Assembly: GCA_030683605.1 (NCBI GenBank)
Contig: JAUXPL010000001.1
Coordinates: 1 to 64,000, forward strand
From: Candidatus Altimarinota bacterium
GTDB taxonomy: Bacteria > Patescibacteriota > Gracilibacteria > BD1-5 > UBA6164
DNA: 64,000 nt
Reading direction: 5' to 3'
Shown: in pieces, positions 1,925-50,210 of the stretch
How the letters are laid out: each line of letters begins with the position of its first letter
How positions within the stretch are numbered: the first letter of the stretch is position 1
Made by a program: the position numbers and the translations under genes
Notes under the pieces: generated by a model
Told to the model about the DNA's origin: nothing
Seen by the model: only the letters and a program-made list of their open reading frames with translations
The model's database searches: none

Positions 1925-2770
1925 GTGGGAATTAAAAAATTTAAGCCTACCACTCCAGGTAGAAGATGAATGACTGTTAATACGTTTGAAGAAATTACAA
2001 CTTCAACTCCGTATAAACCACTTACAGTAAAATTAAAAAAACATTCAGGTAGAAATAATACTTGAAGAATTACAGTAAGACACCAATGAGGTGGTCATGC
2101 TCAAAGATATAGACTAGTTGATTTCTTCCAAGTTGATAAAAAATGAATACCAGCTAAAGTTGAAACAATTGAATATGATCCATATAGATCAGCATTTATC
2201 TCATTAATCTGTTATAAAGACGGAGAAAGAAGATATGTGATTGCTCATAAGGATATGAAAGTATGAGATATAATTGTTACTGATGATAAAGCTACATTAG
2301 AATCTGGAAACAGAATGGAAATAGGAAACATCCCTACATGATTACAAGTGTATAATTTGGAATTAATTGTTGGACAAGGTGCTTCTTCTATAAGATCTGC
2401 AGGTTCTTTCGGTACAGTTTTTTCACAAGAAGGTGAATATACTCAAGTAAAAATGCCTTCATGAGAAATCAGATTAGTACATAAAAAATGTTTTGCTACT
2501 CTTGGTCAAGTTTCTAATCCAGATCACAATCAAGTTGTTATTTGAAAAGCTTGAAGATCTAGATGGATGTGAAAAAGACCAACTGTTCTTGGTAAATCAA
2601 TGAATCCTGTTGATCATCCACATTGAGGTTGAGAAGGACATTCTCCAATTGGTATGAAAGGACCAAAAACTCCATGGGGGTTACCTGCATTGTGATATAA
2701 AACAAGAAGTAGAAAAAACACTACATCTAAATGGATATTAAGAACAAGAAAAGGTAAATTAATGATGTAA
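1925..2770 (+). CDS. rplB: Ribosomal protein uL2
   Basis: uL2 (281 aa, normal length) is required for subunit joining and peptidyl transfer. The N-terminus [17 protein letters not shown] and the C-terminal block with PVDHPHGGGEGHSPIG-like residues are recognisable; here the latter reads NPVDHPHGGEGHSP with TGA glycines. GTG at 1925 is the only start that keeps the conserved N-terminus. There is no in-frame ATG before residue 15. The 178-base gap to rpsS is filled by a palindromic repeat (2792-2888). Confidence 0.95.
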
Positions 2771-2791
2771 GAAGGATAGATGTATTTTTAT

Positions 2792-2888
2792 AACCCTATC
2801 CTAACCTTTCCCTTGAAAAGGGCAAGGAATAGAACATTCTTAATAAATCTTCCCTTTTTAAGGGAAGTACCCGTAAGGGGGATGGGTT
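2792..2888. repeat. Palindromic repeat with inverted ends
   Basis: About 97 bp in the rplB-rpsS gap. Its ends are inverted copies (TAACCCTATCC at the left, GGGGGATGGGTTA at the right). Inside lie TTCCCTTgaaAAGGGcaa and CTTCCCTTTTTAAGGGAAG stem-loops. It belongs to the same family as the elements at 23634, 32233, 61764 and the in-frame copies in leuS, the FemAB gene and rnpA. Confidence 0.75.
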
Positions 2889-2948
2889 ATGATTTATATC
2901 AACTTTTAAAAATCCTTAATATATACAACTTATAACTTATAACTTATT

Positions 2949-3212
2949 ATGACAAGAAGTTTAAAGAAATGACCATACATTGATGAAAGACTATTAAAAA
3001 AAGTAGTTGCAATGAATGATTCATGAAAAAAAGGTGTAATTAAAACTTGGTCAAGAGCTTGTACAATTATTCCAGAATTTGTTGGACACACATTAGGTGT
3101 TCACAATGGTAAAGTACACACTCCAGTTTTTGTTACAGAAGATATGGTATGACACAAATTATGAGAATTTTCAATGACTAGAACATTCAAGGGTCATGCT
3201 TGAAATAAATAG
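2949..3212 (+). CDS. rpsS: Ribosomal protein uS19
   Basis: uS19 (87 aa) of the small-subunit head, which works with uS13 at the A site. The sequence starts [19 protein letters not shown] and carries the family core [30 protein letters not shown] split over residues 34-65, ending with [12 protein letters not shown] encodes the glycine of KKGPY. ATG at 2949 is the family start. Standard order between uL2 and uL22. Confidence 0.95.
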
Positions 3213-3262
3213 AAATATTTTATACATCCCTTAATTTGGGTATAACTATTAAAATTAATACT

Positions 3263-3589
3263 ATGAAAGCATACGGAAAAAATATAAGAATTTCTCCGAA
3301 AAAATTAAGAGTTGTTGCTGAAATTGTTAGAGGGCAAAATGCTGAACAAGCATTAAAATTTCTAAAATTTGCTCCTACAAAATGAGCTGACCTTATGTAT
3401 AAAATTTTAGCATCTGCAGTTGCAAATGCTGAAAATAATGATAATCAAAAATTATCTACACTATATATAAGTACTCTTAGTGTAAACAAAGGAATTGTTT
3501 ACAAAAGATGAAATCCTGTATCAAGAGGGAGGATGCATCCAATTTTAAAAAGAACTTCTAATGTAAAATTAGAGCTACAAGTTAAGTAA
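3263..3589 (+). CDS. rplV: Ribosomal protein uL22
   Basis: uL22 (108 aa) lines the exit tunnel. The N-terminal IRISPKKLRVVAEIVRGQ matches the family, followed by the ALKFLKFAPTK helix and a long beta hairpin containing KRGNPVSRGRMHPI with TGA glycine. ATG at 3263. It sits in the usual place between uS19 and uS3, with gaps of 50 and 80 bases. Confidence 0.95.
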
Positions 3590-3669
3590 TAACTCAATTT
3601 ATTTTGAAAAAGATATTTGATGATAATACTTATACACAGTAATAATAATTTATTAACACATTTTAATTT

Positions 3670-4302
3670 ATGTGACATAAAGTAAGTCCGATAGCTTTTA
3701 GAATTCCATATATAAAATCATGGAAATCAATTTGGTATGAAGACATAAAAACATATAAAAGCTCATTAAGCTTAGATATAAAAGCTAGAGAAATTTTAAA
3801 TAAAGAATTAACTTGAATTCCTGTGTGAGATATTTTGATATCTAGAAATCAAGATATTATAGATGTTGTTGTTTATACTGCAAAATCTGCATTAATACTT
3901 TGAAAAACAGGTGAAAATAAAGAAAGATTAGTAGCTTTGTTAGTTTCAAAACTTTGACTAAAAGTAAATCTTGAAATTAGAGATATTAAAAATCCAGATT
4001 TGAATGCTAAAATCGTATGATTTAACATTGCAAACCAAATAGAAAAAAGAATGCCTTATAAAAGAGCAATCAAACAAGCTATTGCTAAAACAATGGAAAA
4101 AGGTGCTAAATGAATAAAAGTTAAAGTTGGTTGAAGACTAAACTGAGCTGAAATAGCTAGAAAAGAAACTTTTAAAGAAGGTAATATACCAACACAAACT
4201 ATCAGATCTGATATAGATTATGTTACTGTTAGAGCAGAAACTGTTTATGGAACAATTTGATTAAAGGTTTGGATATATAAATGAGACATTTATAAAAAAT
4301 AA
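3670..4302 (+). CDS. rpsC: Ribosomal protein uS3
   Basis: uS3 (210 aa) forms part of the mRNA entry channel. The start [12 protein letters not shown] has TGA as its second codon, which matches the invariant glycine of the family start MGQK. A KH-type domain lies in the first half, and the C-terminal half shows [13 protein letters not shown] and KGIKVKVGGRLNGAEIAR, both family signatures. Standard order before uL16. Confidence 0.95.
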
Positions 4303-10821: not shown

Positions 10822-10854
10822 AAAAAAAGTCTAAATTTTATTTAGACTTTTTTT
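10822..10854. terminator. Bidirectional terminator, secY and DUF342 gene
   Basis: AAAAAAAGTCTAAAT, short loop, ATTTAGACTTTTTTT. A strong symmetric hairpin with A-run and T-run serves convergent genes. The stop codon of the leftward gene (10831-10833) lies inside the stem. Confidence 0.85.
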
Positions 10855-13428
10855 ATTATTATTTTTTATTTCTAAATAATTTAAATATTTACCTATATCA
10901 CTTTCCATCATTGATCATATAAAAAATCAAGAAATTTTCTTGTAATGTTCATATTCTTCTATACGAGTAATCCAAAATGTAGATTTTACTTCAGTAAGAC
11001 ATTTATCAGTTTTTAAATCAAATTTTACATCTATACTAGAGTTTATTTCATGTATATCATTCTTTTTGTCTATTACAAATGATGAACCTCTCATACTCAA
11101 GTCATTTATATAACTATCTGTTAATCAATCTATACTTACTTTTATTAAGTTATAATTTTTTATCTGAGCTTCTGATATCTTGTTTGTACCATTATTCTTA
11201 TATATTATATTTGGATCTACTTTCATTATAACATACCTTCTTTCATCTAGTCTATTTCATGTTACATTGTTATATCATTCATTATTTTTACTTATTATAT
11301 GGTCTTTTATTAAATCATATCATTTTTTATGTGTTATGCTTATTTTTTTTCATTTTTCATCCAAATTTATTTTTTTGTCATTAGTAAATTTGTACTCATT
11401 TAATGAATGTAGAAATAATAGTTTATTTTTAGCTCTATTTTTAAAATCATTAGGATTTAATGATAAATGCTGATTATCATCAAATATGACTCAAGTAGGG
11501 TGTAGTATTATATCACTATTTATGTTTAAATAATTAATATTTAAAATATCTGTATCCTTATTATCTTCAAAGAATTCTAGGAAATTTTCAATTCTTGATG
11601 AATATTCTTTGTCTTCATTTATTTTAGCTATTAGGTTATCTCATTGAGTTTTTAGAATATCTATTTCTCTAAGGGTTTTTAATCTATCATTTGATATATT
11701 CTTTTTTAGTTCATAATCTTCTGTTGATAAAAATTTAGATCTTAATATATCTATATATTTTCTTTTTTCTAATATTAGTTCTTTTAATTGATTTATTTTT
11801 GCTTTAAATCTATCTTTATTTAGATTTGATAGCTTTATATGTCTTTTAAATTTATCTATTGCATAGAATAATATTAATACTATTTCATTGTCTCAAGTAT
11901 CAGATTTAATTTTTATATTTTCTCATCTGAGTCTACATTTTTGACGAATTTCTCATTGAATATCAATCTTTCTTGCTATAAGAGTAGATCAAGTAGCATT
12001 TCATTTAATCAATATTTCATTTGCAATAATTGTTGTATGTTCTATATTTCAATTAATAGTAACTCTTCAGTTTATTGCAAAAATTTTACTATTTGTATGT
12101 ATTAGAGATTTTGATGAAAGATATACATTTCAATTTATACTTTGTAGACTTCAATTGCATATATTGTTTTTTCACATTAATATAATATCATTAGTTGATA
12201 CTACTCTTCAATTTGCTAATAATTCTGTGTCTGAAAGTATTATTTCTAGTCATTTAATATAATATCATTCTGATATTTTTCATTTTTGATGAAAAGATGT
12301 TGAATCGTTTTTGACTTCTATATTTCAAGTTTCAGGTCAAATTGTATTTAAATTTATTATTTCATTTATTCAAACAGCTATTCATATTGCTTTTCATTTT
12401 TCATATTCTTCTAAGTTTCAACTAGAAGGATTTCTTACAAAGTTTAAATATATATCTTCTTTAGCTATTAATGTAATTATTTTATTTCAATCTTGTTCTT
12501 CTACTTCTTTTGTTATGTATTCTGCTCATTCGTAAATAAATTTTTCTTCATTTATTTTGTATGCTTTGTTATATTCCACTTCTTTTCATTTTATATCTAT
12601 TCAAGTGTGTCAATTATTTCATATTTTAATTTTTAGTATTATTTCTCATTTTTTAACACGCGGATATTGCATATCATATGTAGGTATAACAGATTTTTTT
12701 CATTGAGTAATGTTTTTTCTAAATTTAGAAAATTTTACTTGTAATCATAGATTTACTTCATCTTCTTTGTCATCAACTGGTTTTTTATTTGATGCAATTT
12801 TTATTGTATTTCAATTTAATAATTCTCTTTTTATTCAATTAAATTCTGGTCATATTAATGCTTGGTAATTTAATCAATATCTAATTAATTTCTCTGACCA
12901 TAAATATGCAAAAAAATCAGAAAAATTTACTTTGAATTCAGAATTTTCAAAATTTTTTTCTCACAATAGATTTTTTAGTATTGATTTTTTTTCATCATCA
13001 AAATTATCAAGTTTTAATAACAATTCTCAATCTTTTTCTTCATAAATTCACTCATAATAGGTTTTCAATACACTTTTATACAATTTTTTTACTCAATTCG
13101 CTATTTTAATAGGTTTATCAGATTTTATATCTCAATATATTAAATTTTCAATTTGCTTGTAATCCAATCAAATAAATCATTTTTTATCATCTATTATTTC
13201 GCTTATTAAGCTTTTCATAGCTTCTTTAGAAAAATTTGTACTTTTGTAATTTATTAGGATTTCTCAATTTTTTCACACAATAATAAAAGGGTATTTATTT
13301 ATTACTCCATTTAATAATATTAAAGCATCATTAACTTTATCCTTAGTATTATCAGAAATATTTATTACTTTTGGATTTGTTAGATGATTATTAGTTTCCG
13401 GATTATTGTTATTTCATTCCAATCCCAT
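10831..13428 (-). CDS. DUF342 (FapA-like) protein with C-terminal PilZ domain
   Basis: An 865-aa protein. Residues about 256-505 form a run of short beta-strand repeats (NGNVYLSSKS, NGRVTINGNI, IANEILIKGN, IARKIDIQGE) typical of the DUF342/FapA polymer-forming region. Residues about 535-610 look coiled-coil. The last 130 residues carry a PilZ signature: DERRYVIMKV supplies the RxxxR part and DLSMRGSSF the D/NxSxxG part, so cyclic-di-GMP binding is a fair inference. No signal peptide is visible, so it is probably cytoplasmic. The ATG at 13428 is the first in the frame. No flagellar genes are nearby; a role in pili or surface assembly is only a guess. Confidence 0.75.
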
Positions 13429-36361: not shown

Positions 36362-37621
<1,260 letters not shown>

Positions 37622-37629
37622 AAAAATTT

Positions 37630-37657
37630 AAAAAATCGCTTGAAAAAGCGATTTTTT
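37630..37657 (+). terminator. Terminator after serS
   Basis: AAAAAATCGCTT, gaaa, AAGCGATTTTTT. Confidence 0.85.
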
Positions 37658-37756
37658 GTATAAATTAATTATACAAAAAATGTTGTAAAATATAGATTTT
37701 TTAGTAAAATGTTAAAAAGTACTTTTTGTTTTATTTATTTAGCGAAAAAATTGGTT

Positions 37757-40700
37757 ATGAATTACTCTAAATTTCAAAAATTTATATCAAGTTTTTTAAT
37801 TTTTTCATTACTTTTTAGTATATCTTTTAGAGTTCCTTTTAACTTCGATACTTTCGCTTGAAGTTCAGATTTTTATAATCTGGTGTCTGTTATAGTTGAT
37901 GAAGATACATATGATGAATTGAAGTCTGAAATAAATAGATATTCAAAAGATATACAATGAGTATTAGAAAACACAAAAGTTGTTATTTTACCAACTCCTG
38001 TTAATACTCCTGCCTTTAACATTGCTTCATTAAACGAATCTCTATATACACAGTGATATAAATCTGTAGATAAAAATGTAGATTTTGAATCAAAACTTGT
38101 ATGAACAGTAATTATTTGAGATTTTAATTTACCTACTGTTTTTGATAAAAATACATATTCAAGAACTATTTTACCATTGACAGACTTTGATGATAAGGTT
38201 TATATATATAATCATGAAACAAACAGGTATGAAAAAAATGTAGATAATAAAGATTGATTGAAATCAGAGATATGGCATTGAGTAATAACTCCAAATCTTT
38301 GAACATTTGAAAAAAATATTTCATGAATTAGAGATTATTTAGACAAAAATCATGATTATTATTCATGAACAGGTAATTTTAAATATTCAGCTTGAGTATT
38401 AAATTGAAATAATAAAGTATGAATTCCTAGCGTATATGAGCCTTATGTATTTTATTATGATCAATTTAGAGAAGAAAAAGCGCTTAATTATAATAGTTAT
38501 GAAGCATATGAATCATATTTAGAAAATAAAGAAGATATTCTTTATTCTAGATTTAATAAAAAATTATCAGATGCAGTTATAAATAAGAGTAGCTCTAGTT
38601 CTAATGAAACAATAGCAAAATTATTAGAAAAAGTAGATCCTAATTATTGAAAAGAATATATATGAGAAAAACCAGATACTAGCAGAGTTCCAGATATTCA
38701 TAATAGGTATTTAATAAATAATGTTACTAAAAAATTTTTAGAAATTTTTGCTAAATGAACTATTTGAGATTTCAGAAAAGATGTTCATAATGCTTGAAGA
38801 TATAACGGAACTTGATCATCATTAAATGTAGATATGATTCCTTATTTTGTAACTGTACTTGACTTAGTAAATGATGAAATCACAAAAGATATAAATACAG
38901 AATTAGAAAAACAAATTGATGAATTAGTTAAAACAGGATTGTCTAGATATATTGCTTTACCAACAAGTGTTTCTGATAGTAATTGATGTTGAACAACTTT
39001 TCAAAATTATTTATTTTGAAAAAAAGCTAGTGATATAAAATCTGCTGCAGAATGTAGTATTTATAGATGATCTAACCTAAGTTGAGGAACATTGGTTGAG
39101 GCAAATAGATGATATAATATAAATTATTCAAATACTGATAAAGATACATTGTATAATGAACCAGATAGAAATTATTGTTTTCAAAACCTTATTTCTTGAA
39201 GTTCACTTAATTGATTTTGGTGAGGGAATAGTCCTTTAAATCTTGATACTAAACAATTAGTAAATGGTTCTAGAGTACTTAAAAATAGAGATTTTAAATG
39301 AGCTATTTATCCAGTTTTTGATATATGATGATCACAAATAAGAACGGATAGTTCAAAAATATATTCACCTCTTAACTGTTTGGAAAATAATTTTATTCTA
39401 GCACAATCCCATGATAGGGATTCAGATGGTAAATGTTATGTTGATTATAGAATTCCAACTTTTTGATGAAGAGTTAATTGGTCTTGTACTACTGATAATA
39501 ATTCTGGTAAGACTTTTTCTTTTTCTAAAAATTTTGAAAATAATTATAAAAATCCAAGTTGAAATATTATTTTAGATTGAAAAAATGTAGCATGAAATGG
39601 TGATTATACATTTTCATATAAAAAAATACCTTCATTTTTAGAGCATAAGTCACCAACTAGTGATGAATTAACAAAACAAATAGAATCAATGATTGCTGAA
39701 TCATTGCCAATAGATAAAAATAGATATGTTGATTTTGTAGCATCTAATTGAGAATATGCAAAAATAGAGTATCCTAACTTATTTAGATTAAAAATAGAAG
39801 ATAATTCTAAAGTATCTTATGCTACTATTTCTAAAGAATTAGATAAAGTACTTGATGAAAAATCAAAAGAGATTAATGAATTAATAAGAAAAACTAATCC
39901 AAATTCATTAATTTGAAAAGATAAAGATATTTATAATTTATTGAAAATAGGATCATTTCCAAAAGATAATTTTGATTTAACAAAAATACTTAAAAATAAA
40001 GAAGATAAAACTTTTAAAGTTGCTTGAGATGAAAAAACACTAAGTTATTATGATACTCTAGTTTTATCTTTATATTGGAATAATCTGAATTCTACATCTG
40101 CTAAGTATTGATTTATTTTTGATAACTATTTGATTGATCAATTTGGAGAACAAGAATCGAAATATTTATTACCAAAAAATAAAAAACAGTATGAGATATC
40201 ATATTTATGAGCACCTTGAGATGCAAAAAATATGTATATAAAAATGGATCCAAAAGCTAAAGCACAAAATCCATATGCAGATATATTCACAAATAATATA
40301 AATTTATCATCTACATTACTTTGAGCTAATGTATCTTGAAATGATTCGGCTTGAAATAATAATCAAACTTTTAAATGTGCCCCACCTGATTGAGTACCTA
40401 TTTGGAGTTGGATACCTGCTGTTATGTGTTGGTTGTGAGATATGATGCCACCATCAATATCTATTTCAGAGTGAGTATGTTGACCTAGTATAATATGAGA
40501 ATCAGGAAATCTTTTAGAAAGTAGTTTTTTGTCTGATGAAGAGAGAAAAGAAGTATTACAATGTAATTGAGATGTAGATAAAAATTGAATTAATGATTGT
40601 ATAGAACAAAAATTAAGTTGAGCAAAATTAGAATTAAGTAGCGATAGTGAAAAATATTTTTATAACAAAAATGCTATACTAAAAGCAGAAATAAAGGATA

Positions 40701-43700
40701 AAAATTGAAAAACTGTAAAAATTGCTAATAGTACAGATGTTTATTTTGAGCTATATAAATTAGAAATAGCCAAAGATAATAAAAAAGATATATCGACTAC
40801 AAATAAAACAATTGTTTATAATATAAAAGATAGTTCTAATAGTGATTTATCTAAAGTAACTAAATATATTACATTTAAAGAATGAAAAGTTAGATCACAA
40901 TGAGGAATAGCAAATTATTGAATTTGACTAAAATTTACTGATGCAAACATATTTTTGAAAGCATATATAAGAGAAAAAGATTCTAATAAAAAAGAAGCAA
41001 TATTTTTAGACTCAGATCCTATAGAAATACAAGTAAGAGGAGATAAATTATTTAATATTTCTTATAAATTAGTAAATTCTACATCAGGATTGGATGTTGA
41101 TTTGTTATCTAATTCTTTAAAAGTAAATGATAAAACAAATTTGTACTTAGTTGATTGAACTATTAATAATATTAAATCTGTATCAAATCTGATTAATAAT
41201 TCGTCAATAAGTAGTGAGAAATTTGTACTATTATTGGAAAACATAGATGCAAACTGAAAAAAGTCACCAATCAATTATCCTCTAAATATAAGTATATTAG
41301 AATGAAATAATAAAATAGTTGAAGATTTCACAGTATCACAGAGTGAATTAAATACTTTTAAATGATTGTTTTCTGTAAAAAAATCATGAAGTTATAAATT
41401 GGAAATAACTGATTCTAATTGATTTAAAACTACAAAAAGTATTACTTTTTTACCAGAAATACCTAATAGTGTAGACATAAAATTGGGTACAAGTGTAATG
41501 GAATCTTGATGAAATATTTCTACTAATTTTTTAACAATTTATGATAAATTTTTAAATCCAGTTGTATGAGAATTTTATGACATTGATTTATCAATTGATT
41601 GAAAATCGATCCAATTTTTGGATAATTCATCTGATAAATTAAAATCTACTACTTTTGAATGATATAAAGTATTTAGATTAAAATCTACAGATAAAACTTG
41701 AAAAAGTACAATAAAGGTATCAGTACTAAATGATGATGGAAAAGAAATTATTAATACTTCAAAAAATATTGAAGTATATGATGATATTAACTTAGTTGCT
41801 AAACCAATATCTGGTAATATAAAAGTATGATGATGAAAATATAAATTTGAAGTTTCCCTTAGAGATTCTAACTGAAAACTATTATCTGATTTTAATTCTA
41901 GAGCATACATGGTTGCTGATACAATATTTTTGGATACTACTAATCCATATTTTGAATTAAAAAACTGAGTAGCTGAAGTCGAATTTACAACGAAGAGGCT
42001 AGCTTGAAAAAATATTCCTGTAGAATTTCAAGTAGAATGATTAAAAAAGATTGTTCAAAAAAATGTAACAATATATCCTGACAAGGCTGTAAAGATAGAT
42101 TTGAATTTGTCTAAAAGCAAAATAGAAGCATCACCGATAGCTTTTTCAAATTTAAATGTTGAACTAAAAGATAGGTATAACAATCTTGTTTTCAATGATA
42201 ATACTACAGTTACAACTATAGAAATATTAGATCAATATGCTAATATTATAAGTTCTGATAAAAGTGAAGCTATTGTAAAAGAATGAACTAGCAGTTTTAG
42301 AATTAATTGAACTGTAAATCCTTGAGTGGCATATTTCAAAATTGGAACTAATCCAAGTTTATTTTTGAATTCATTTAAAATTCAATCAGAAAAATGAGAA
42401 GTGGAAATAAAATGAGTATGAGAAAATGCATTAAAAATAGAAACATTTTACTTTTGGAATGATAGTAAATTGAATTGAAAAAAATATAATTCTATTTATA
42501 CGACATTATTATGATCAAATTATTGAGATATATATGAGCAGGATTATTTAGCTGGTAGTTTACTTTTTGAAAGAAATAATAGATCATTAGCAGTTACATC
42601 AATATTGAATAATCCGTTTTCATATAATAATATTTTAGATTTAAATAATTTTGGTTGAATAAAAACTTTGTTTTCAAAAAATGATTTATCACAAGATTTA
42701 CAAATAAATCCATATTTTGTTAATAATAAATTGTGATTAAATATTTATAATAAGGCTCTAAATATATTTGTAGCTAAAGTTTATTATAATTTTGGTTCAA
42801 ATATTAAATTATCAACATGTGAAAATAATATTTCTACATGTGTTGATCCTAAAAAAACTTCTATAGTATTAAAATCATCATCACAAAATTATAAGGTTTA
42901 TAATAACGATTCAAAATTAATATTAAGAGATATATATTGAAAAAATCTTTTAGAAATTTTAAATGATTGAACTATTAATAGATTATGATCAGTAGAATTT
43001 GAATTTAATAATAATAATTCTGCTAAGTATTTATCAATTAATATTAAATCTTGATGAAAGATTATATGAGAATTATGATACAATTTTATAAATCCTACTA
43101 TAAGTACTTCTAATGATGATAATATATTTGATTCAAAAATTAAAAATACAAGTAATTCTATAGCAATATTGATTAAGTCTGGAGCATATTGAACATATAA
43201 TAATTGAAATATAAATAGTCAATCAAAGATATTTTATTATAATGATCCTTTTACAAAATCTAATAAATTAAATTCTTTTTCTAGTAGTAGTACAGATTGA
43301 ATTGAAAATTTTGCTAACAAAAAATGAATAGGGTGGGATGCATGAAATAAATCTCTTCTTGCATTTTCTGCATGAAAATCTGTTTGAGAATCTGTTAAAG
43401 ATTATATGAGTTTTTGAGTAATAAATTTATGAGATCCAGTTATAACACTCAAACAAATTAAACAAAAATTGCCCAAAACAAATATAGATAGAAAATATGA
43501 TTCAACTATATGAAAATTACTTTCAATAGATGATGATGTCAAATCATATCAAGTATTTGATTATAATAATGATAATAAAGCTGATATATTATTAGTTAAA
43601 AATGATAATTATTTGAAATTATTAGAAAATAAAAAAGTAGAACAATATTTATTAGATAAGTGAAATGTTGTAAAATTAGTTGATTTATGATCTCATGATT

Positions 43701-46700
43701 TATTAAAGACTTGAGATTTTACTTGAGATTGATACGAAGATATATTTTTTGTATCAAAAGATTGAAAACCGTTTTTATTAAATAATGAGAATAAGGATTT
43801 TTCTAGGATTTCGTTAATAGATAATTTTTCTCTTGCTTGAAGAATTGTAAGAGCTGAAAAATTTGATATGGATAAAGATTGAAAAGATGATTTAGTTATT
43901 TTAGATGATTTTTGAGAACTAAATATTTTTTATTGATGAGGTAGTAGTAATAAACCTATATTTACGAAAAAGAGAATTTCTGCATATCATTGAGTAACTC
44001 TAAATTCTAATACTAGAAATGACTGATGATTAGTATTTTTTGATTGATTATATCAACCAGGTGATAAAGTTAATAAAAATTCTCAAGTAGATAGCTATTT
44101 ATTTATTAAATATCCTTACTCTAATTGAAAATTAGTATTAGATAAAGAAAATTATATTTCTTGAAATGAAGATTTTTCTAATGATAGATGAAGTTCTTAT
44201 TTTTTGAAAAGTGAATATAGTGAATATAGTTGATTAAAGGTTGAAAAAACATACATAGATAAGAATAGTAAATTTATTTCAGCTAATGATATAGTTGAAG
44301 TAGAAGTAAAACTTAAAAATGTTTCAAATACTAATTTAAAAAATGTTGTTTTTGCTGAAAAGGTACCAGATGTTTTTAGTTTGGACAAAAATTCATTTAA
44401 ATCATTAACAGATTTTGATATATTTGACTGAAATGTTTGATATTCTTATTTGATAGATAATTTTGATATTCCTTTAAACTGAACTGTTACTTTTTCTTAC
44501 AAAACAAAAGTTAAACCTCTTAAATATAATAAATTAGAAGTTTGATTGTTTGAAACTTGAGAACTATGAGACGATATTTATGGTGATATTATATTAAAAC
44601 CTAATAACCAAAATTGTAGTAATCCATTAGAGATTTATAGGTCATGATTAGTAGCTAGAACATATGAAAAATGAACTAAAACTCCAGTTTGTGATGAACA
44701 AAAATCAATACTACCACCAGAGATTGAACAAAATACATTTGATGCAGATTGAAATTGAGTACCTGACTATATAGATAAATTAACGAATACCAATGATACA
44801 AATGAACTACAAAAATATTCAAAACAAAAATTATCAGAAATTAATCTAGATAGTGATTATGATTGAATACCAAATGATGAAGATAATTTTAATATGGATT
44901 GAAGTATTACAGTTGATTTATGATGAATGTGAGCAAAAGTGGATTCAGCATTGGATTCTGTTGATAATATTGTACAATGATTAAATTGTTGATTTGGTAA
45001 TGAATCTTGTTTTGCTTCTCCGTTGAATTGGGCACCATTAGCTCCATGATCTGATCCAATTTTTATGTGAAGAACTATATGAGATTGATTAAAAGTAGAT
45101 GAATGATTACCAATATTTTCAATGAATACTTGGCAAAGTGTTTGACCTTTATGTGTACCTTCATATTGGCCTGCTTCAGTAAGCTCTATATGATGTTCTT
45201 GAAAATGAGCATGAGGTGCTTTATGAATATACAATCCTACTAATTTTTTCAGAATATTTGTTACCCCTACACTTACTTGATGAGTATGAACAGCTATATG
45301 TTTTTGATGACCAGCAGCAATTGCTTGAATATCTATTCCACAAGCATTTAGTCCTTTATTTCCAGGATGAAACTGTATTGTCGTAGCTAAAAAAACATTT
45401 GGATGTGCAGGGGATTGATCAGATTGAGATGTATGATCTACTGGAATACCAAATTATTCTACAGATTGAAGTTTTGGTTTGATTAATTGAAATTGTAAGC
45501 AAGATGAAAAATCAAGCTTACCTTCTAATGAAAAACTAGGTATTTATTTGCAAGAAGCTAAAAAGTGACCAGTAGAGAAAGCATTTGAATTTTTACCATG
45601 AGATTTTTCTGATACCCCAATTACTCCTTTGTTTAGTCAGTGAGATACTTGAGCAGAAGTAAGTGTTGATCTAGAATCTTTATTTAGTTGAGATTTCGAA
45701 GATGTTATCAAAATTGATATGAGTAGAATAAGTCCATTTCCTAGTTGGTTAATGGATTGGGTAACTAGACAAATAGAGGAAATAGCTAATAAGCTTACTG
45801 ATTTTCCTACATTATTTGTTATATTACCTGATTTTACTTGAATTCTTGATTGAAATTGGTGAGAAATGAGCTGAAATAAATCAAGAGCTCAATTGGATAA
45901 TTTATCTATAGATCCAAATCTTATATGAAATGAATCTGTTGATAAATATGCACAAAAAGTAAATTCTTGAATAAAAGAAGCATATGAATTTATTGGTAGT
46001 TTACCTCTTGTATATATTGACCAAGAAACTGTAAATATAAATCTACCTTGGTTATCTGATGCAGAATTAAATAGAACTATTTCTACTTGGTCAAACACAT
46101 TAGATCAACGGGAATTTGAAGTAAATAGGGCTTCAGAAGCATGGTCTATGTGAAATACTTGTAAATATTCAAATCCTGATGACCAAAAGGCTTGTGTAGA
46201 AAATAATGAATTATCAAGTAAAGCTTCCGTTCAATTATTAGCTAATGCTAATGGTATGATCTGATCTTTAAGAAATAATATAGAAGTAATAAAATCTTAT
46301 AAAAGAATACCTGAAGATATTAATGATTTAATTACAAAAAAACAAGATTATTTGGAACAAACTTTATGTAATATTGATACTATTTCGTTTATATTGTGAT
46401 GACGGATATGAAAAAATGGTATTAGATTTAAAGCTTGGGTAGAATTGTATATTTTGATTAAAGCTGTTCTTAAATCTTGGCAATTACTTGTTGACGTGTT
46501 TTTTGATTATGAACAAGAGTGTCATGATTGTAAAAATGAAAGACAGGATGCATTAGAAGAGGAATTTTCATTAATTGATATGATAATGCCAAAAATTCCA
46601 ATAATTAGATTTCCTAAATGGCCTGATATTATATTAGATTTACATAATATTAGAGCTTGATTAAGAGTTACTTTACCAGAATATAACATCACATCTAAAC

Positions 46701-49700
46701 CAATTATTTTACCAAGTTTACCAGAATTAAATTTACCAAATGTTCCTAGTGTAGATATGGCATTGAGTGTACAATTACCTGAAATACCTGTTTTACCTAC
46801 TTTGGAAATACCTAGATTACCTGATTTACCTTCATTGCCAACTATTGAACTTCCAGATTTACCACCACCACCAAAATTACCAAAATTATTATCTAGTATA
46901 GAAATAATTGTAGACATAATAAAGCTTATCACAAAAGCAATGTGTATTTTGAAATCATCTGTTCTTCATCCAGAGTGGAGAGCTTGAGATCAGATTGCAT
47001 TTTTAACTGAAAGAACTGGTTATTTATCATTTGATTTTTTTCAAAATACTTCTCCAGAATTTTCGTTTCCATTTATTGATGCTATAAAGGTAAGTACTTA
47101 TGTAAATATGGAATTTGAAGCTGATTTTATAGTAGAATTAGCTAGACAAATGGCTATGCCAATAAATGCATTCACAAATGATTTTACTAATATGTTTGAT
47201 GTTAAGTCAAGTGATATGGATTTCAGAGATATTGCACCTGTTTGACCTTGAAATATTGATATAGAAGTATCTCCAAATTGAATTGATAATAGTTTTTGAA
47301 AATCTAGTATTAATAATAAATTGGCTAATATATTAGCTCAAAAAGTTTCTACAAATATACAACACCTTGCTAATACTATGGAAGAAAAAAAGTGAGAAAC
47401 GGTAGATAATACAGAATTTAAAAAATTAGTTAATAATTCTTTGGCTTCAAAAACTATTACTTCTGATCCTAAACTAGATAGTTTGAGACAAGTATGGGAA
47501 CATGTAAACAGTTATACTTATTCTAATGAAGATAAATTAATAAAAGAATTACAAGATGCTAATACTGAAAAATTTGATATCGTAACTGATATATTGAATA
47601 CTGAAATAATAAAAAATAAGGAATTAAAGAAACAATTGGAAAATTCTAGAAAAAATACTATTATAACAAAAGTTTGATCAAATGATTCAAATAAAAAAAT
47701 AGAAGATTATAACAAAAAATTATCAAAATATAACGATAATTTCATAGAAAAAGCAAAAAATCTAGTAGATAATAAATGAGATGGAATAAGAGAAGAATTG
47801 AAAGAATCTTCTAAAGAATTGTTAGATTCTATTAAAACTCCTCTAGAAAATTATAAAGATTCTCAATCAAAAATATCAACAAATAATTTATTAGCAGCTA
47901 CAAATACAGATATTTCTATCAATTCTAATACTGCTACTGTTAATTCTTGCCAAGCCCAATCTAAATCTCAATATAAATATAAGTATGAATGATTGTATAT
48001 TTTAGAATGAAATACTTCATATAGATTATTTGATTATTTGGATGAACTGGATGGAAATGAACAAACAAAAATTATTGATATAGATAATGATTGAGATGAA
48101 GATCTATTATATTTTGTTAATTGACAATTGTTTTTAAAAGAAAATTTACAAAACAAACCTACAAAAATTTATTTAACAACTAATCCTTTAGTTTTGAAAT
48201 CTAGTGATAATAAATTTTTTAACTGAGATGTATTTTTTGATACAGTAAATAATTTTAGAGAATTTGGTAATACTAATTCTACTATAAATATTTGATTTTC
48301 TGCATCTACTAATAAAACAATTAATAATTATAGAATATGATTTTATCAATTGATTGATAAGTATTTATGGGAAAAAGATGTTAATTATAGGCCTCAAAAT
48401 GTAATGAAGAGTATTATTGATGGAGTATCAAATATAAATCAAACTACAAAAATTTCTGAAAATGAAGTATATGTTAAAAGAAATAATATTGTATATATCA
48501 ATAATGTTTGAAATCTAAAATGAGTCAAATTGCAAACATCAAATCTAATAAATATAAAAGATGACTTATGAGATAACAAAGTAGTTAATTTAAATAAAGG
48601 GACACAATTGTATGCATGAGGAAATTCTTTTTCTATAAATTATTTAGATAAAAATGACGATAAAAAAGTAAAAAGAGCAAATGCATGAGCTTATGAGAAT
48701 CTAGAATTTCTGACTGATATAAAAATCATTTGAATATCAGGAAGCGCATATATAAAGTGATCAAATATAATAACTTATGAATGACCAGCTATAAGAAATT
48801 ATTTAAATAAACCATTATTTCCTGGGACAAAAATATTGTATGATTGAAATGAAAATATTATAAATGAACAAACTTATATAGATATAAAATATTATGATAA
48901 TTCTGAATTATGAATTGATTTTTCAAAAACTAATTCTTGGGAATTATATGATTTATGATACAAATCAAAGGATTATTATATTAGAACAAATAAAGATAAT
49001 GATTTGTATTATGCTAAGATTAATTCTTTCAAAAATAATATAGATTCTACTTTATCTAGTCAAGTATTATTTGCTCCTCAAAAAGAAGCAGATACTCAAG
49101 CTCCAGAATTGAGACTAAGTAATATTAGAATCCCTGTATACCAAAAAAATACTACAAATCTAACACAATATATTTATGAAGATTCTTGAATAAGAAATAT
49201 CAAGAAAATTATTGTAGATATGGACTTAGATAAGGATACTGACGGTGATGGTAATTCAAAAAATGATGATGATTGAAATATAGCAGGAATATATAAAGAT
49301 GTAGTAAAGGTTATTTATTCTCCAACTGCTATAAAACTAGAATTTGCAAAATTTGATAACTTATTCAAGAAAAAGATTTGAATTACTATGTATGATGCAA
49401 ATAATAATCGTGGTTATAAAGAAGTAAATTTGGAAGTATATTCTCCAAAACCAAGAGTTAATTCTTTTAATTCTTGAACAGTTAGTTGAAGTATAAATGA
49501 AAATTTGACTGATGAACCTATAAATCTATATAGATTTAGATGAGGTGTAGTCTCTAGTTTGAATGATGATTCTTGAATAAATAAATCTAATACTATTAAA
49601 TGAAATTACAAATTTAATATTTCTTCTACTGGTAGTTGATTAAAACTATACAGGCAAGGATTAGAAATTGCTAATATAGATGAAAATTCTTGAAAGATAT

Positions 49701-50167
49701 CTTTTAATGATTTAGCTATGACTACACAAGTACTTTCTTCTAATAGTTCTTTGAACGATTCTGTGTTTCCAAAAATATTAGTAAAGGATTCTTGATTAGA
49801 TATTTACTATCAATATGTACATATCCAGTGAGTAAATAAAGTAAATGTAGTAGAAGATTTCCAAAATTTAAAAGATAAATGAATATATTTTGTGTTAACT
49901 AATAAAGCAAATTATTCATTTTACAGTACACCAGAAACTTTAGACTATAATCCATGAGCATTATCTATTTATAGAATATGAGATAAAGACAAAAAAGAGT
50001 TGTTCACAATTTTTAAAGATTGAAGAATAAATACTCAAAACGAAGCTTATAAACTTGAATATGTAGTAACAGATAAATATTGGTACTTCAAACTAATTGA
50101 TACTAGTTTAAATAAGGAAGTATGAAGGCTGATGTTTATTGCAAATGCTGATTATATCATGAGGTAA
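37757..50167 (+). CDS. Giant secreted multidomain protein, 4136 aa
   Basis: One open frame of 12.4 kb if UGA is Gly. Signal peptide at residues 1-34 (ISSFLIFSLLFSISFRVPF). Residues 1-900 are unlike known folds. At about 880-905 a Cys-Pro-Trp stretch (CAPPDGVPIWSW). Ca-binding or dockerin-like DVDKNGINDC near 935, DADGNGVPDYIDK near 2329 and DSDYDGIPNDEDN near 2365. Several Ig-like strands between 1000 and 1500, with a DUF11-like stretch near 2158-2210. FG-GAP/VCBS-like DYNNDNKADILLV, FTGDGYEDIFFV and FDMDKDGKDDLVIL at 1930-2045, and DIDNDGDEDLLYF near 3440. A glycine-rich hydrophobic patch at 2490-2555. A Leu-Pro repeat at 2978-3046 (LPDLPSLPTIELPDLPPPPK). Coiled coil at 3230-3380. No C-terminal anchor. 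A role in attachment to a host is likely but unproven. Confidence 0.85.
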
Positions 50168-50173
50168 AAACCT

Positions 50174-50210
50174 AAAAAGTAGCAAACAATTTTGATTTGC
50201 TACTTTTTTT
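50174..50210 (+). terminator. Terminator of the giant gene
   Basis: AAAAAGTAGCAAA, 9-base loop, TTTGCTACTTTTTTT just after the stop codon. Strong. Confidence 0.85.

Follow-up and report, generated by a model that had tools for sequence, protein, structure and literature searches.

How ultra-small bacteria that depend on hosts attach to other cells and feed on them is still an open question, and comparable systems have been described in predatory relatives of the organism considered here. Giant surface proteins with adhesion-type domains have been reported in Vampirococcus, where the longest has 4,163 aa (PMC8080830), and in Strigamonas (PMC13059738), as far as the parts of these two reports drawn on here describe them. 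VCBS-repeat proteins have been detected in Gracilibacteria proteomes (PMC11452946), which we do not equate with the protein presented below. The open-licence literature searched yielded no description of an orthologous giant family or of a five-gene operon. Our subject is one gene in a window of 64,000 nucleotides (the whole stretch of DNA that was analysed) from Candidatus Altimarinota bacterium. Judged by its relatives in sequence, this gene is the local copy of an ancient single-copy family present in most of the class, and looks unlike a lineage-specific adhesin. The locus has the following features.

36362-37621, + strand: seryl-tRNA synthetase gene (serS), upstream neighbour kept as such only by close relatives; not a partner
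37630-37657, unstranded: hairpin with a T-run, between serS and the giant gene
37757-50167, + strand: gene of the giant secreted protein; product 4,136 aa with UGA read as Gly
37757-37861, + strand: signal peptide, residues 1-35 (aligned in homologues; hydropathy scan)
37862-40156, + strand: N-terminal module, residues ~36-800 (AlphaFold2 mean pLDDT 81 over residues 36-985)
41459-42190, + strand: bacterial Ig-like (Big_1/Invasin_D3-type) domains, residues ~1235-1478 (profile match to 4e9l; boundaries approximate)
43715-43900, + strand: FG-GAP_3 repeat, residues 1987-2048 (E 1e-8)
44741-44881, + strand: Asp-rich Ca-binding (TSP3-like) stretch, residues ~2329-2375 (sequence, motif scan)
44987-45496, + strand: Cys-rich block, residues 2411-2580 (C2418, C2515 and C2540 in all aligned homologues)
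46058-46522, + strand: predicted long helices or coiled coil, residues 2768-2922 (moderate-confidence model, whole-model mean pLDDT 64)
46676-46882, + strand: Leu-Pro ladder, residues 2974-3042, conserved in homologues
46883-46957, + strand: conserved hydrophobic helix with invariant C3063, residues 3043-3067, following the ladder
47333-47869, + strand: second helical block, variable, residues ~3193-3371 (alignment, structure model)
47984-50164, + strand: C-terminal region, residues ~3410-4136 (SLH absent here, present in 5/6 distant homologues scanned)
50174-50208, unstranded: terminator-like hairpin with a T-run, 7 bp after the stop codon
50867-52117, - strand: Thioredoxin_4/DsbA-like protein gene beside the giant gene, a proximity shared by only some close relatives

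The boundaries of the open reading frame were confirmed exactly: under translation table 25 it encodes 4,136 residues, contains 224 in-frame UGA codons read as Gly and ends in TAA. An alternative in-frame ATG lies 16 codons upstream, at 37709, and we prefer the start at 37757 because the homologues have their signal-peptide start in common, aligned at MNYSKFQKF. The frame is not a product of chance, since none of the other five frames stays open for more than 290 codons, 200 base-shuffles give at most 143, and the table 11 reading of the locus at most 108. Independent support for this reassignment comes from 14 standard-code homologues, which place Gly at the giant's UGA sites (frequency 0.38) as they do at its GGN sites (0.31), against 0.046 at non-Gly sites; their Trp frequency at the UGA sites is 0.007. 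Among code-25 homologues the number of UGA codons in the gene varies widely, from 1-6 (L094, which is partial, and L087) to 273-291 (L057, L092).

For the terminator previously ascribed to the gene there is a candidate in the terminator-like hairpin with a T-run at 50174-50208; the hairpin on the other side of the gene, at 37630-37657, is of the same kind. A promoter of its own, also ascribed to it, is not, for promoter-like sites occur at chance level (129 found against 132 expected). We rejected an operon with the window neighbours (serS, the thioredoxin/DsbA-like gene, an O-antigen ligase and a glycosyltransferase), which are neighbours at family level only. Elsewhere in the window (10834-13428, - strand) an 865-aa protein has a sub-threshold FapA_N match (flagellar assembly protein A N-terminal region; E 1e-5, below the curated cut-off).

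Most of the domain composition first read from the letters survives, in part by way of relatives. The signal peptide is N-terminal, starts at a position aligned across homologues and exceeds a KD19 hydropathy of 1.6, as does only one other stretch, the internal residues 3047-3065; no C-terminal TM segment was found by hydropathy at that threshold, in keeping with the supposed lack of a C-terminal anchor. For the Ig-like parts the support comes from relatives: in Pfam scans 11/29 giant homologues match Invasin_D3 and 3/29 match Big_1, with the window protein singly below threshold, and a profile of the middle region matches 4e9l, the structure of an attaching-and-effacing protein (E 7e-7). What had been called FG-GAP/VCBS-like corresponds to the one FG-GAP_3 match listed above, and an FG-GAP match recurs in 28/29 of the homologues scanned. 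Long helices are predicted, with moderate confidence, where a coiled coil had been proposed, and the Leu-Pro repeat is clear in the sequence; the DUF11-like stretch proved weak (2/29 homologues). Class-wide, the most conserved part is the Leu-Pro ladder with the flanking C2922, C2925 and C3063, and the alignment of full-length homologues contains about 210 near-invariant columns.

Structure was predicted by segments for two parts, residues 36-985 (pLDDT 81) and 2395-3490 (pLDDT 64). In the window protein the N-terminal module matches no Pfam family, and its model (residues 36-985) has no significant fold match in the PDB or BFVD. Short motifs seen by eye had given us the idea of a peptidase C25 or caspase fold for this module, which we rejected: Pfam C25 matches number zero in 51 giant homologues, the PDB offers no sequence or fold match, and a caspase-domain match in BFVD is weak (E 0.07) and was not counted as evidence. 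For the core (residues 2395-3490, comprising the Cys-rich, Leu-Pro and coiled-coil parts) there is no fold match either, which says less because the mean pLDDT of the model is only 64; its PDB matches (apolipoprotein, TRIM25 and others) reflect coiled-coil composition, not homology.

Within the limits that contig breaks and incomplete genomes set on per-genome counts, the N-terminal and C-terminal halves are each present in 59/59 genomes of the order, almost always in single copy, and the core profile, which covers the block of highest conservation (residues 2860-3125), has matches in 211/311 genomes of the class. The lineages concerned are Gracilibacteria (Gracilibacteria/Altimarinota among the named loci), Peregrinibacteria, Peribacteria and a UGA-recoding family, f158. 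Absconditabacteria had been named as a place to look for homologues, and f158, which has UGA codons inside its giant gene and which we take to be probably Absconditabacteria, does carry one; f158 is a lineage of the class other than the window's Gracilibacteria, and it also has the system. Outside the class the core profile is absent from all genomes sampled, 344 by count of listed rows among 381 genomes searched, and the N-terminal profile is absent from every other-class genome (~325) in a sample of 361. Within it, two families stand apart: the core profile has no match in f12 and five weak ones in f8 (E 7e-4 to 1.5e-8), and the N-terminal profile finds nothing in the 16 f8 and three f12 genomes tested. 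Since f8 and f12 are without the giant system, some members of the class can do without it.

Homologues are co-linear single open reading frames of roughly 3,000-5,850 aa where contigs allow, usually 4,000-5,300 aa; the longest of these has 5,849 aa. One f157 genome has a frame of 7,874 residues with an N-terminal profile match (L177, L178; G438:C6). At genus level, every 100-residue window has at least 60% identity to the nearest relative, and there is no hypervariable segment. A quick tree of the conserved blocks splits code-25 Gracilibacteria from Peregrinibacteria with support 100, which is consistent with vertical descent. On one contig (L081/L082, G034:C37) the gene occurs twice as mirror images, with the same sequence on opposite strands; this looks like a palindromic assembly artefact.

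The gene does not stand alone in all of its relatives, a point that the sequence-only reading missed. At 15 distinct Peregrinibacteria/Peribacteria loci, including one in which the giant is split (L117), it is followed on the same strand by three genes, A, B and C, with gaps mostly of about -55 to +95 bp, and a fourth, D, comes after these wherever the flank reaches that far. A, B and C are small secreted Cys-containing proteins, D is likewise small and secreted, and in Peregrinibacteria the five genes form one operon with the giant at its head. The same five-gene layout recurs in f158, where four secreted-protein genes follow the giant at gaps of 8-23 bp. Gracilibacteria have their partner genes at separate places, C with a D-like gene after it near clpB/map, and in the window genome C and its D-like neighbour are unlinked to the giant gene. 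Evidence for homology is strongest for C: a profile built from Peregrinibacteria only, without the window genome (A6), matches C there (E 5e-7, and E 2.6e-12 against open reading frames, contig C21), in f158 (E 3e-10) and in other Gracilibacteria. A broader profile (A8) finds C across the class, strongly in f158, whose C is itself one of its rows; since A8 includes Gracilibacteria members, the low E-values there arise partly by construction. In f8 and f12 the A8 matches are only weak (f8 E 1e-3 to 7e-7). The weakness of the f8 matches to the giant and to C, together with the lack of any match to the N-terminal profile (A3) in the f8 and f12 genomes tested, is our reason for not scoring them as presence. 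Giant and C co-occur in families throughout the class, and at comparable strength both are absent from f8 and f12. Matches of C to spike glycoproteins reflect coiled-coil composition and were set aside.

For the other partners, the f158 match to B is weak (E 0.0024), a search of the window genome for B found none, and A was looked for in the retrieved loci only. Between Peregrinibacteria and other groups, A and D correspond by position only; homology of D between Gracilibacteria and Peregrinibacteria was considered and not accepted (hhalign probability 7%). In four f2 genomes (L151, L155, L170, L171) the gene immediately upstream of B encodes a TrwB/TraD-like T4SS ATPase, and in L151 a T4SS_pilin gene (PF18895) lies beside B.

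In proposing a role for the giant, we infer with good support from its signal peptide, the SLH domains of its relatives and its invasin-type Ig and FG-GAP modules that it is a secreted surface protein. SLH (S-layer homology, PF00395), a domain that anchors proteins to the cell wall, is found near the C-terminus in 5/6 distant homologues scanned, the f158 homologue being the one without, and Pfam reports none anywhere in the window protein. In a 14-genome sample, Peregrinibacteria, f8 and f12 have 22-58 SLH matches per genome and the window's family 2-6. On balance, and with slightly better than even confidence, we favour the reading that the giant serves as scaffold in a cell-surface apparatus of several proteins, as yet undescribed, vertically inherited in most of the class and probably contacting other cells. 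Such contact is suggested by the modules, by SLH in relatives and by the giants reported in predatory relatives (PMC8080830, PMC13059738). The giant would be exported by Sec, its Cys-rich core would fold with disulfide bonds, and its Ig-like and FG-GAP modules would form an extended stalk or display; A-D may dock on the Leu-Pro ladder and helical core, and the assembled structure would project from the cell wall and contact other cells in host attachment or predation. A more specific version, to which we give rather less than even weight, is that these are the five proteins of a previously undescribed secreted machine, ancestral to the class, in which a giant scaffold with at least one new fold physically links the cell to its host or prey.

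Two other functions could be claimed for a protein so widely kept. It might be a structural protein of the S-layer or envelope, belonging to a housekeeping wall coat that plays no particular part in host contact, and its near-universal, even conservation, almost always in single copy, together with SLH in several Peregrinibacteria copies, would suit this. However, the proteins of S-layer lattices tend to be smaller and variable, and a basic coat would not be expected to have a five-protein operon or FG-GAP and invasin-type modules, nor to be absent from f8 and f12, whose tested genomes are rich in SLH (34 matches in G222, 24 in G389). We consider this explanation unlikely. Alternatively, the giant and A-D might form the part outside the cell of a type IV secretion-like system of CPR bacteria for DNA or effector transfer, powered by the TrwB/TraD-like ATPase. 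The position of B behind that coupling-type ATPase in four f2 genomes, one of them with the adjoining T4SS_pilin, speaks for it, but the ATPase also occurs in G222, an f8 genome in which no giant was found, it is unlinked to the giant gene itself, and in the window genome the gene downstream of it is not B; we regard this as distinctly improbable.

The earlier interpretation, that of a lineage-specific host-recognition adhesin, holds up only in part. A secreted protein with Ig-like, FG-GAP and Ca-binding parts is what it would predict, the VCBS-repeat proteins of Gracilibacteria proteomes noted above would be in its favour if this protein is among them, and the placement at the surface is retained. 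A host-specific, fast-evolving adhesin is argued against by a gene that all sampled members of the order retain, that is co-linear throughout the class and that shows no 100-residue window below 60% identity to its nearest relative, and host recognition of this kind seems very improbable. A family common to Gracilibacteria, Peregrinibacteria and probably Absconditabacteria, its partner genes named, can be addressed directly by proteomics, imaging and structure determination, also in lineages with co-cultured predators, and its absence from f8 and f12 provides a natural comparison.

The giant has partial analogues among known surface proteins. A phage origin was rejected, there being no relative in viral contigs and no PHROG match. 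With invasin/intimin-type proteins it shares Big_1/Invasin_D3 Ig-like domains, but these form one segment of it (residues ~1235-1478), and the membrane-barrel domain of intimin and invasin is absent in Pfam scans; in place of an outer-membrane beta-barrel N-terminal domain there are a signal peptide and the N-terminal module. Giant RTX-type adhesins have C-terminal RTX nonapeptides or a type I secretion signal; the general Pfam scan of the window protein reports no such repeat family, and the hydropathy scan points to an N-terminal signal peptide. A sortase anchor (LPXTG-TM-tail) is lacking at the C-terminus, which ends in IANADYIMR with no hydrophobic segment. SLH-anchored surface proteins are resembled by the distant homologues, whereas the window protein and the f158 homologue have no such domain. 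A further likeness is to the giants of Absconditicoccaceae (PMC8080830, PMC13059738), which are likewise very large and carry adhesion-type domains (DUF11, integrin, fibronectin); in the parts of these reports drawn on here they are given per genome as a mixed group, and a class-wide orthologous family, a partner operon or co-occurrence is not described. The longest giant of Vampirococcus lugosii, at 4,163 aa, is close in length to the f158 homologue, at 4,169 aa, and the two are possibly the same protein.
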